Origin: Prevotella sp.
GTDB taxonomy: Bacteria; Bacteroidota; Bacteroidia; Bacteroidales; Bacteroidaceae
Assembly (NCBI GenBank): GCA_024682415.1
Contig: JAIKZG010000009.1
Span: forward strand, 145,257 to 209,256
Reading direction: 5' to 3'
Length of the DNA stretch: 64,000 nt
The notes beneath the pieces are model-generated. The model saw only the letters and a program-made list of their open reading frames with translations, made no database searches and had not been told where the DNA came from. Positions 60,084-64,000 of the stretch are shown here, in pieces. Position numbers and translations under genes: made by a program. Positions within the stretch are counted from its first letter, which is position 1, and the number at the start of each line of letters is the position of its first letter.

Positions 60084-60510
60084 TTGCAAGCTATGAAATG
60101 AAAATAAGAAGATTTGCCCGTTCCATATTTTTATAATCTTTGCTTTAAGAAGCGAAAAACGCAAGCGTAGTATTTAATACTATTTAACAACGAGGTGAAA
60201 CTATGTTTATAGTTGTAGCAGATTGTTAATAAGAAAGTGAAACTATGTTTATAGTTGTAGCGGATTGTTAATAGAAAGTGAAACTATGTATATAGTCGTA
60301 GCAGATTGTTAATAGATAGTGAAACCATGTTTGTAGTTGTATCAGAATGTTAATAAGAAGTCATTTCTACGGCTATAATTGCCTTTCGTCTTAAATTTTT
60401 CCTCATTCTCTTCGCTTTGAATGAAGATTTATTCGTAACTTTGCCTTTAAAATTAAAGGTGGAGAAGCAGATTATTAACATCTTCCTCTGCCGATAACTG
60501 TAAAAACAGA
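60084..60510. repeat. Dispersed ~430-bp intergenic repeat, copy B, with 41-42-bp phased array
   Basis: A near-identical copy of 10183-10610, 50 kb away. The array units match copy A almost base for base (one G/A change in the second unit and a two-base difference in its linker). Flanking similarity fades after ~60405 but returns at ATTATTAACATC. Unlike copy A, copy B contains TAACTTTG (60436-60443), followed by the perfect dyad CCTTTAA-aa-TTAAAGG (60444-60459), a possible promoter and operator for the helicase transcript. Confidence 0.85.
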
Positions 60511-60669
60511 AAAATAGAGCAAACTGTCTGCTATATATAATAATGTAGAGGCAGCGTCTTTCGCAATTGCGAATTACTTGTATATAAAAGCTGTAACGAG
60601 CATTACGATAGGCAGACATATTTTTGATATAAAGTGAATTAAAATCACTGCATACTAATTTTGATGTGG

Positions 60670-60830
60670 CTTAGTTGCTAAAAGTTCGACCAAAATAAAA
60701 GTACACAGCCACGGAGAAGTCAGGATGCACCTTGCTATAGGTGCACCCTTTTCCGTGTATATGTGTACATAGGGCAATCTTTGGTCGGACTCCCTCGCAA
60801 CTAAGATACACGAGAAAGGTGGTGCATCTT
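60670..60830 (+). promoter_or_regulatory. 136-nt multi-stem hairpin with alternative terminator-like pairing, upstream of the helicase gene
   Basis: Nested stems: CTTAGTTGC/GCAACTAAG (60670-60678 with 60797-60805); GTTCGACCAAA/TTTGGTCGGAC; GTACACA/TGTGTAC; CACGGA/TCCGTG; and GGATGCACC with GGTGCACCC at the tip. In addition GATGCACC (60724-60731) is perfectly complementary to GGTGCATC (60821-60828), which is followed by a run of eight T or more. This creates two exclusive folds, one of them with a U-tract. The start codon is 28 nt further on. It could be an attenuator or a small non-autonomous mobile element with terminal inverted repeats. Confidence 0.6.
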
Positions 60831-60855
60831 TTTTTTATTATCAGATTTTAGCAAG

Positions 60856-63800
60856 GTGAACAACGAACCAAAGTCTTTTGATAACGTAAATAGTCGAGTA
60901 ATAGACGATTTAAGGCAGACCGTCACCCGTGGCAGCAAAATAGAAATCGCTGCTGCCAGCTTCTCTATATATGCCTACGAAGTGTTGAAAGAGGAGTTGG
61001 AACAAATTGATGAATTGCGTTTTATCTTTACTTCGCCTACATTTATTAAGGCTAAAAACGAAAGTAAGGAGAAACGGGAATTCTATATTCCAAAACTTCA
61101 TCGTGAGCGTAATCTTTATGGTTCTGATTTTGAGATAAAACTGCGCAATGAGCTGTCGCAGAAAGCGATAGCACGCGAGTGCGCCGACTGGATACGCCGT
61201 AAGGCTCGTTTTAAGACCAATATTACGGAGCGCATGATGAACGGCATGCTTAATGTGAAAAATTCAGATAACGAGTCTTTCACTTATATGCCATTTAATG
61301 AATTTACCACAACTGAGATAGGCGTAGGGCGAAGTAATAAAATTCCGCAGCTTATCACTAAATTTCCATCACCGCTTGCAGTAGCCTATCTGCAAAACTT
61401 TGAAAACCTATGGAGCGACGGCAAACTCTTTGAAGATGTCACCGACACCATTGTGGAAAGCATTGCCACAGTGTATAATGAAAATAGTCCTGAATATATC
61501 TATTTTATAGCCTTATATAATATATTCAAGGATTTCCTCAACGATGTTTCCGAGGATGAATTGCCCAATGAAAAGACAGGATTCAAGGACAGCGTGATAT
61601 GGAATAAACTCTATAATTTCCAGAAAGACGCAGCTCTCGCCATTATCAATAAACTTGAAAAATATAATGGCTGCATTCTTGCCGACAGCGTAGGCTTGGG
61701 CAAGACCTTTACGGCGCTTGCCGTGATCAAGTATTATGAGAGCAGAAACAAGAATGTACTTGTGCTCTGCCCTAAGAAGCTATACAACAACTGGGACACT
61801 TATCACAACGATTATGTAGACAATCCGCTGGTTAAAGACAGGCTCAATTATAAAGTTCTTTTCCACACCGACCTAAGTCGCAATAGTGGGCGAAGTAATG
61901 ATATCGACCTCAGCCGCTACAACTGGGGCAACAACGATTTGCTTGTAATAGACGAGAGCCATAATTTCCGCAATGGCGGCAATGTGGATGAAGACGAACT
62001 TGAAGAGGCCGACCACATAAACCGATATCAGCGACTGATGCAAAACGTGATACGCAAAGGCGTGAAGACAAAGGTGCTGATGCTTAGTGCTACGCCTGTA
62101 AACAATCGTTTCAACGATTTGCGTAATCAGTTGCAGTTGGCTTATGAGGGGCATACTGCTGATTTTAACAACGCTCTTGAAACGGATAAAGACATCGACA
62201 ATATATTCCGCGACGCGCAGAAGGCTTACAACAACTGGTCGAAGCTCGATCCAGAGCATCGCACCACGCAGCGTTTGCTCGACAGCCTTGATTTTGATTT
62301 CTTCAAAATGCTTGATGCTGTGACCATTGCGCGCAGTCGCCGCCACATAGAAACTTATTACGACACTAAGGATGTGGGAAAATTCCCTAAGCGTCTTGCG
62401 CCTGTATCGCGTCGCCCTAAGCTCACCGATATTCCCGATGCCATCACATTCAAGGGCATTGCCGAAAAATTGCTCATGCTCAATTACAGCGTGTATGCGC
62501 CTTCGCGATTTATTCATCCGAGCATGCTCTATAAATATAATCTCAAAATGGGTAATAGCGGCAGTGGCATAAGCATCACCGGTCAGGAGAAAGGTATTTG
62601 CAAACTCATGGCGGTAAACATGCTCAAACGTCTGGAAAGCAGCGTGAATTCTTTCCGCCTCACATTAGAAAGAGTGCGCGCCACGATAGAAAAGCAGATA
62701 GCCATTGTAGATGATTATGTGGAAAATCATCAGGCAAAGAGCATTTCAGCGGGCGAAGATTATGGTATGGTGGCAGAGCTTGACGCAGAAGATAGCGAAA
62801 ACGCAGCCTGCGTGGGCAATAATATGTCTATTCGCTTAGAGGATATGGACTATGCGTCGTGGAAAAGAGAAATGGCGGAAGACCTTGCCGTTATTGATTA
62901 TCTGCTGCGAAGCATATCCGGCATTTCGCCAATCCACGACTCCAAACTGCGCCAATTGCTTGGTGATTTAAGCCATAAGATAGCCCACTCTATAAATGGC
63001 AACAATCGCAAGATACTTATCTTCACTGCCTTTTCAGATACGGCGGAATATCTGTATCAGCATATTGTGGAAGCTCTCAACACAGCTACGCGTGGCGAGG
63101 TGAATGTGGCAATGGTTACGGGCAATGCCAACAAGAGCACCGTGAAGAGCATTCATGGCGATTTCAACAAGATATTGACGCTTTTCTCGCCAATATCCAA
63201 GAATAAGTCTACCATATATCCGGAAATAAACGATACTATTGATGTGCTTATCGGCACCGACTGCATTTCCGAGGGACAAAATCTGCAAGACTGCGACTAC
63301 ATAATCAATTACGACATTCATTGGAATCCTGTGCGTATCATTCAGCGTTTTGGTCGTATCGACCGCATAGGCTCAAGAAATGAGAAGATACAGCTGGTAA
63401 ACTTCTGGCCCGATATGGAGCTTGACGAATACATTAAGCTGAAGGGCAGAGTAGAATCGCGAATGCGTGCTCTCAATATTGTGGGCGGCGGCGATGAAGA
63501 TGTGCTTTCGCCCGAGCAGCAGGCCGATTTAGACTATCGCAAGCAGCAGTTGCTGAAGATGCAGCATGAGGTGGTAAACATCGAAGACATGAATACTGGC
63601 ATAAGCATCACCGATTTGGGGCTCAACGAGTTTCGCATGGACTTGCTTTCTTATCGCAAGCAGCATCCTAACATCGACAGCGCGCCTTTCGGAATGAGTG
63701 CCGTCACTAAGGGCAGCTCTATTGTGAAGCCCGGAGTGATATTCCTGCTGCGCAACATCAATAATGGTGTAAACATAGGGCAGCGTAATCTTATTCATCC

Positions 63801-64000
63801 TTATTATATGGTGTATCTTGCCGACGATGGCACTGTGGTGACCGATCATCTGCACCCTAAGCAGATTCTCGATTATATGCGTGCCGCCTGTGCCGGCAGA
63901 AATGAGCCTATAATGCCGCTGTGCAGCGCCTTTAATCGGGAAACGCGTGACGGCTGCAACATGAAGCATTATTCTCAGCTCCTGCAGAGTGCCATAAAGA
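60856..64000 (+). CDS. PLD-like/SNF2-family helicase, candidate defence gene (3' end outside window)
   Basis: Missing from the ORF track because no stop lies within the window. GTG at 60856 is the only sensible start: a stop lies at 60802 and no ATG intervenes. The ~1,048 visible residues begin with a phospholipase-D-like N-terminal region ('RGSKIEIAAASFSIYAYEVL', 'LRFIFTSPTF'). SF2/SNF2 motifs follow: I 'LADSVGLGKT' (near 280), II 'DESHNFRN' (near 366), III 'LSATPVNN', V 'GTDCISEGQNLQDCDYIINYD' and VI 'QRFGRIDRIGS'. Similar proteins often precede DUF4391, a DNA methyltransferase and a type-III-like restriction helicase in Bacteroidetes, so a restriction or defence operon may continue to the right; that is inference. 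Confidence 0.85.
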   Translation, partial: MNNEPKSFDNVNSRVIDDLRQTVTRGSKIEIAAASFSIYAYEVLKEELEQIDELRFIFTSPTFIKAKNESKEKREFYIPKLHRERNLYGSDFEIKLRNELSQKAIARECADWIRRKARFKTNITERMMNGMLNVKNSDNESFTYMPFNEFTTTEIGVGRSNKIPQLITKFPSPLAVAYLQNFENLWSDGKLFEDVTDTIVESIATVYNENSPEYIYFIALYNIFKDFLNDVSEDELPNEKTGFKDSVIWNKLYNFQKDAALAIINKLEKYNGCILADSVGLGKTFTALAVIKYYESRNKNVLVLCPKKLYNNWDTYHNDYVDNPLVKDRLNYKVLFHTDLSRNSGRSNDIDLSRYNWGNNDLLVIDESHNFRNGGNVDEDELEEADHINRYQRLMQNVIRKGVKTKVLMLSATPVNNRFNDLRNQLQLAYEGHTADFNNALETDKDIDNIFRDAQKAYNNWSKLDPEHRTTQRLLDSLDFDFFKMLDAVTIARSRRHIETYYDTKDVGKFPKRLAPVSRRPKLTDIPDAITFKGIAEKLLMLNYSVYAPSRFIHPSMLYKYNLKMGNSGSGISITGQEKGICKLMAVNMLKRLESSVNSFRLTLERVRATIEKQIAIVDDYVENHQAKSISAGEDYGMVAELDAEDSENAACVGNNMSIRLEDMDYASWKREMAEDLAVIDYLLRSISGISPIHDSKLRQLLGDLSHKIAHSINGNNRKILIFTAFSDTAEYLYQHIVEALNTATRGEVNVAMVTGNANKSTVKSIHGDFNKILTLFSPISKNKSTIYPEINDTIDVLIGTDCISEGQNLQDCDYIINYDIHWNPVRIIQRFGRIDRIGSRNEKIQLVNFWPDMELDEYIKLKGRVESRMRALNIVGGGDEDVLSPEQQADLDYRKQQLLKMQHEVVNIEDMNTGISITDLGLNEFRMDLLSYRKQHPNIDSAPFGMSAVTKGSSIVKPGVIFLLRNINNGVNIGQRNLIHPYYMVYLADDGTVVTDHLHPKQILDYMRAACAGRNEPIMPLCSAFNRETRDGCNMKHYSQLLQSAIK

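Follow-up and report, generated by a model that had tools for sequence, protein, structure and literature searches.

Genomic context and predicted structure of the leader

The window (the whole 64,000-nt stretch of Prevotella sp. DNA analysed here) ends in a gene encoding a PLD-SNF2 helicase, and the region directly upstream of this gene would be transcribed as the 5' leader of its mRNA (Table 1). Folding of positions 60670-60830 yielded -65.4 kcal/mol, compared with a dinucleotide-shuffle mean of -37.4 (sd 4.0; z -7.08), and none of 200 shuffles folded as well. The long hairpin that an earlier note on this DNA had placed before the helicase is thus real, its size being corrected from about 41 to about 46 nested pairs (60670-60805; the fold to which it belongs is hereafter called the giant hairpin). 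The same note had reported that the arm next to the T-run is complementary to the hairpin tip, and GATGCACC (60724-60731) is indeed the exact complement of GGTGCATC (60821-60828), which is followed by eight T. This complementarity stands, but the stronger and conserved alternative is a different one, in which the 3' half of the tip with its continuation (60739-60760, AGGTGCACCCTTTTCCGTGTAT) pairs with 60806-60829 (ATACACGAGAAAGGTGGTGCATCT), giving a terminator fold of -36.8 kcal/mol in the window and of -38.3 and -37.2 kcal/mol in the two other copies of the leader in this genome. Three features go beyond the earlier note: the pairing of a 5' element with the last arm, formed in the giant-hairpin state by TGCATACTAATTTTGATG (about 60649-60667), the two additional genome copies, and the involvement of the start site. 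The core of the 5' element is identical in the three genome copies, and the tip hairpin reads GGATACRCC-loop-GGYGTACCC in the family. About four tandem 41-bp units (GTGAAACTATGTTTATAGTTGTAGCAGATTGTTAATAGAAA) are located at 60195-60355, in the interval that separates the leader from the methyltransferase-domain gene upstream of it.

Table 1. Features of the leader and the adjoining gene in the window.
Feature	Position	Strand	Remarks
Possible Bacteroidota promoter box TAnnTTTG, TAACTTTG	60436..60443	+	About 200 nt before the modelled leader
Conserved 5' element, TCACTGCATACTAATTTTGATGTGG	60645..60669	+	Pairs with last arm 60806-60829 in the giant hairpin; helices 1-3
P1 5' strand, CTTAGTTGC	60670..60678	+	Partner 60797-60805
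P2 5' strand, AGTTCGACCAA	60683..60693	+	Partner about 60780-60790
P3, P4 and tip hairpin	60701..60768	+	Tip GGATGCACCTTGCTATAGGTGCACCC invariant in the genome
Terminator 5' strand (tip 3' strand and continuation)	60739..60760	+	
P2 3' strand, CTTTGGTCGGACT	60779..60791	+	Partner P2 5' strand or, in the terminator loop, the start-codon region
P1 3' strand, GCAACTAAG	60797..60805	+	
Last arm (terminator 3' strand)	60806..60828	+	Common to both exclusive folds
T-run of intrinsic terminator	60829..60836	+	
PLD-SNF2 helicase (PADLOC C3a139 HKD+Snf2)	60856..63999	+	GTG start; runs past the contig end

Copies in the genome and distribution of the leader family

The 2.5 Mb assembly contains exactly three copies of the leader. 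A type III Mod-Res operon (L015) follows the second at a distance of 34 nt, and the third lies 46 nt before an EcoRI-type adenine methyltransferase with a GmrSD_N/HNH restriction gene (L016). The upstream element TCACTGCATACTAATTT is common to all three, and their tips are identical; the outer stems differ in sequence yet still pair. A DNA search of the genus turned up one more, divergent copy, which has a further methyltransferase operon behind it (L031/L069), and the first covariance model, built from these four leaders, matched 84 of 398 genomes of the genus. A second model matched 25 of 301 genomes of the family, belonging to 9 of 30 genera, and among 295 genomes from across the order it found, beside the source genome, one weak copy outside the family with the same architecture. 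Reverse-strand matches of the models were rejected as palindrome echoes rather than genes. When the tip was searched with three mismatches in 298 relatives, only chance matches, mostly in coding sequence, were obtained outside the source genome. The window leader had no match in plasmids and phages, nor the leaders of two relatives in plasmids; viral contigs contained no exact tip match, and their matches to the tip pattern carried no leader according to the covariance model.

For the comparison of downstream genes and sequence signatures, 137 loci were collected. Rfam 15 covariance models at gathering score gave no match to the leader, and tRNAs were the sole matches elsewhere in the loci. 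Several known element types were rejected at these 137 loci: a short ORF, as in a leader-peptide attenuator of the trp type, was present in 101 (119 expected from shuffles); a T-box sequence in one, with two mismatches allowed and no Rfam match; the ops element GGCGGTAGnnT of RfaH/ops-type leaders in two, with one mismatch; and the end R boxes of an integron attC site (RYYYAAC and GTTRRRY) in none.

Leaders of the same gene family are 82.5% identical across genomes, and those of different gene families within one genome have a median identity of 67%. The three copies of the source genome are 75-80% identical, above the usual 67%, which suggests from sequence comparison that the leader has been transplanted between operons in the host lineage. 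Such likeness of three copies in one genome, together with the position of the leader before many unrelated cassettes, could also be taken as the mark of a DNA-level element, the hairpin acting as DNA in a MITE, a recombination site or an attC-like cassette boundary. This explanation is hardly credible given the constant orientation, the distance of 20-60 nt from the gene, the promoter upstream and the T-run downstream, the scarcity of 8-mer flanking repeats (3/137) and the lack of attC-like boxes (0/137), and the fact that leaders follow the gene family, as the identities above indicate.

Conservation of two mutually exclusive folds

In the alignment of 63 leaders, which was fitted to the giant hairpin and therefore favours it, 91.8% of the pair cells of this fold were formed and 42 of its 56 pairs were doubly changed, whereas controls with slid partners reached 34-54%. 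Double changes were already present in 20 of the 56 pairs in a structure-free MAFFT alignment of four sequences. A second set of 71 rows, two of which are reverse-strand echoes, likewise fitted to the giant hairpin, gave 90.4% paired cells and 49 of 56 pairs doubly changed. The terminator was counted on alignments fitted to the competing giant hairpin, and 82.0 and 83.3% of its cells were still paired; doubly changed pairs numbered 16 of 25 and 15 of 20, respectively, and the slid controls were at most 60% paired. The two strands of the tip and the last arm change in step, their letters (tip 5'/tip 3'/last arm) being A/T/A in 22 and G/C/G in 39 of the 63 leaders. The terminator fold could be formed by all 63 leaders, at -27 to -53 kcal/mol, and all 63 possess a T-run of at least six T in 9 nt, compared with 2.5% of random 9-mers.

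Two exclusive folds before a defence gene, one of them terminator-like, had been proposed for the window alone, with covariation in homologous leaders named as a check. This covariation backs each of the folds with compensatory changes, and it gives good support to an attenuator of two mutually exclusive folds. The giant hairpin is thermodynamically preferred in nearly all copies, so that something must open it.

A third pairing with the start site

In 56 of 124 loci, the start region of the downstream gene is complementary to the P2 3' strand of its own leader (score of at least 7 pairs), compared with 2.5 on average after letter shuffling and 19 (maximum 27) when P2 was exchanged between loci. 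In many of the mRNAs, the sequence of the P2 5' strand recurs as a copy beside the start codon, and the start site is complementary to the P2 3' strand over 10-12 nt. This copy tracks P2 through more than ten variants, such as GTCCTACC in L125, ACCCGACC in L143, AGACCAA in L090, L109, L111 and L144, GTCGACC in L082, GTCCCTTCC in L128, L181 and L189, CTCCTACC in L187 and others, AACTGGCC in L175, and AACGGCC in L208. In L016, L122 and L128, the P2 3' strand is matched better by the start site than by the P2 5' strand, which argues for pairing rather than mere repetition. A strong complement is absent from about half of the leaders and largely absent from the window copy, where ACCAAAG (60867-60873) faces CTTTGGT. 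In leaders of the type ISP systems, the start codon lies between TAGATT and AATCTA.

The same complementarity could serve a terminated leader that acts mainly in trans as a small RNA, the P2 3' strand in its loop blocking the start sites of its own mRNA as a negative feedback on the dosage of the defence gene. The covarying 10-12 nt would suit this purpose, the differences in P2 between system types would keep the circuits apart, and a 5' UTR of Listeria is reported to combine attenuation of transcription with an action in trans (PMC11394854). We nevertheless consider this unlikely: the pairing works equally in cis, about half of the leaders are without a start-site complement, and the more stable fold hides the P2 strand.

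Promoter and conserved 5' part

The promoter box TAnnTTTG was detected within 85 nt upstream of 88 of 121 leaders (7 expected), mostly 56-71 nt before the modelled leader; the box in the window lies about 200 nt away, and its use here is therefore uncertain. Long 5' hairpins are able to stabilise mRNA, and both hairpins of the leader are stable, so the element could in principle be a constitutive terminator or an mRNA-stabilising hairpin devoid of regulation. This is improbable, since covariation extends to both exclusive folds as well as to the start site, and a constitutive terminator behind a conserved promoter would silence the operon.

Between the promoter box and the hairpin, most relatives contain a variable stem-loop, the motif GACATYGTGGGT and a small GTATC hairpin. 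A search with the motif alone in 15 leader-rich genomes recovered eight known leaders and one new hairpin, upstream of a gene whose product resembles a DNA methyltransferase. Extended to 140 genomes, the motif search revealed a second hairpin class, unrelated in sequence (L270, L272, L273, L274, L276, L279, L281), that follows the same logic: a 5' GACATYGTGGGT motif, a long hairpin, a tip strand complementary to the last arm, and a T-run. Downstream of this class are two EcoRI-type methyltransferase-like genes and several predicted secreted proteins. The shared 5' motif is the best candidate site for a putative trans-acting factor.

Envelope genes are typical targets of NusG paralogues (reviewed in PMC7819879). 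Some leaders of the family precede envelope genes, others long operons, and the 5' motif is conserved even on hairpins of unrelated sequence. These features fit a protein-dependent antitermination, in which a NusG paralogue (UpxY/LoaP/RfaH-like) or another RNA-binding protein would load at the 5' motif and carry the polymerase through the terminator, the giant hairpin being a binding site or a by-product. This reading, which differs from the one we prefer mainly in which part of the leader senses, is possible but less likely than not: covarying exclusive folds and a covarying start site exceed the needs of a binding site, and an ops-like element is found in 2 of 137 leaders only.

Genes downstream of the leader

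The 137 loci were grouped by the first gene after the leader, and representatives were annotated with Pfam and PADLOC. About 115 of the leaders directly precede modification-based defence genes. The groups counted were DpnII systems (32 loci), split Eco57I/IIG (25), type III (17), Ssp phosphorothioation (14), type ISP (8), SNF2 helicases including PLD-SNF2, DISARM-like and other kinds (8), BREX with BrxP-BrxC (7), one EcoRI-type system and one C5 methyltransferase. Two further leaders precede an operon with a HATPase-domain protein to which no system was assigned, and seven precede envelope genes (four EptA-like, one LpxL-like, one acyltransferase and one flippase). The remaining loci, cut off, unclear or with other genes, are mostly among the weakest model matches; among the 63 best matches in the genus, nearly all readable genes belong to defence or defence-like operons.

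Most of the downstream systems contain SAM-dependent DNA methyltransferases, which would be in line with a metabolite riboswitch for SAM or a related compound. However, such a riboswitch is very improbable for a single long unbranched hairpin without conserved junction and without Rfam match, and there is no obvious metabolite common to Ssp, the BREX BrxP and the envelope genes.

Relatives of the PLD-SNF2 helicase with a leader include L113 (62% identical over its length) and L152 (68% over the part read). In L091 and L159, what follows the leader is an N-terminal remnant of PLD-SNF2. Helicase homologues at 11 loci from other phyla had no leader (best E 4.4), some of these being fragments short of upstream sequence. 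Full DpnII loci numbered 21 in 150 genomes of the genus; 10 had the leader, one of these being cut by a contig end, and 11 had none. Leader-free helicase homologues and the partial occupancy of DpnII loci together indicate that the leader belongs to the host lineage and not to the gene. Many defence operons have this module of the host lineage in front of them, and it is no feature of the helicase. The earlier note had held that homologues without such a leader would speak against the attenuator; they do exist outside the host family, and it is the tie to the helicase that they undo, leaving the attenuator unrefuted.

Several loci show unusual arrangements behind the leader. In L091, L094 and L159, PLD-SNF2 remnants are located between the leader and other genes (type III Mod in L091 and L094), as if a decayed system had passed its leader to the next gene. 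In L137-L139, L141, L147, L212 and L213, EptA-like or LpxL-like envelope genes are joined to the leader and to first codons typical of type ISP genes (MQKNL/MHENL), which looks like a replacement of the restriction gene behind its leader. In L070 (802-6800) and L072, the leader precedes genes for proteins of 392 aa, 555 aa, 601 aa (HATPase domain) and 436 aa with no PADLOC match, an operon that is a candidate new defence system. Finally, weak-scoring leaders in L202, L204-L209 and L216 precede small HTH proteins, a beta-propeller-like gene or genes of no recognised kind, and some of them retain the start-site copy (AACGGCCAATTATG), hinting that the leader architecture is older and wider than defence.

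Proposed mechanism

We consider it probable, at roughly seven chances in ten, that the leader is a transcription attenuator coupled to start-site sequestration and represents one copy of a cis-acting family. Sequence and covariation show that the RNA can adopt two folds. The first is the giant hairpin, in which the last arm is sequestered together with the 3' strands of the tip and of P2. In the second, the tip 3' strand and the last arm form an intrinsic terminator followed by the U-tract. The P2 3' strand then lies in the terminator loop; as about half of the family has a start-codon region complementary to it, a read-through transcript could also be blocked for translation. The giant hairpin would correspond to the ON state, because it removes the terminator and frees the start site, and the terminator with sequestered start to the OFF state. 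The balance between the folds may be set by a trans-acting host factor, which perhaps recognises the 5' part with the GACAUYGUGGGU motif and the small GUAUC hairpin of most relatives, and a factor common to the leaders of a cell could adjust several unrelated defence operons by one signal. Points against this reading are the thermodynamic preference for the giant hairpin, the want of a strong start-site complement in about half of the leaders and largely in the window copy, and the leaders that precede envelope or other genes. The earlier note's suggestion that infection or stress switches the leader on names a possible trigger.

More tentatively, with the odds set slightly below even, this Bacteroidota lineage may possess an RNA-controlled defence regulon, in which one trans-acting signal, read by the common leader, would throttle transcription and translation of about ten unrelated modification-based systems together, the leader passing between operons as a regulatory cassette.

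Significance and comparison with known systems

Restriction-type systems are usually seen as controlled singly, by C proteins, antisense RNA or promoter strength. One RNA family before type II, IIG, III, ISP, BREX, Ssp, DISARM-like and PLD-SNF2 systems makes a joint setting of their expression possible, and opens the timing of defence in these bacteria to experiment. The leader may explain why such defence genes appear silent in culture, and it provides a signature by which defence operons can be recognised in sequence, also ones not yet described, as in L070 and L072. No earlier account of such a leader was found in the literature searched, and the family is apparently undescribed.

Like the trp-type, T-box and ribosomal-protein leaders, the present leader combines two exclusive folds, one being a U-tract terminator, between promoter and first gene. 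Unlike these attenuators, it has no enrichment of leader peptides and no T-box motif, consists of one very long hairpin, and has defence operons as targets. With the RfaH/ops, LoaP and Bacteroides UpxY leaders it shares a conserved 5' motif before long operons and some envelope targets; it differs from leaders of NusG paralogues in the rarity of ops-like elements (2/137) and in itself holding a covarying terminator and antiterminator. The 2010 survey of candidate RNAs (PMC2864571) described Bacteroid-trp, Bacteroidales-1 and Bacteroides-1, which have Rfam entries and are likewise structured RNAs of the same phylum, but none of which is tied to restriction genes in that work, and no Rfam model matches the leader. 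Rli51 of Listeria, reported to be a 5' UTR RNA that attenuates transcription and is also a trans-acting small RNA (PMC11394854), resembles the leader in its described function.

Known control of restriction-modification genes relies on C proteins and antisense RNA (reviewed in PMC3874152); this review mentions no riboswitch or hairpin leaders, its terminator and leader passages concerning antisense RNA. In both cases the expression of restriction-modification genes is controlled, including by RNA, whereas here a single leader family serves many restriction-modification types as well as BREX, Ssp, DISARM-like and PLD-SNF2 systems. Attenuators as such are known; what is apparently new is one family before many unrelated modification-based systems, equipped with a covarying start-site lock.
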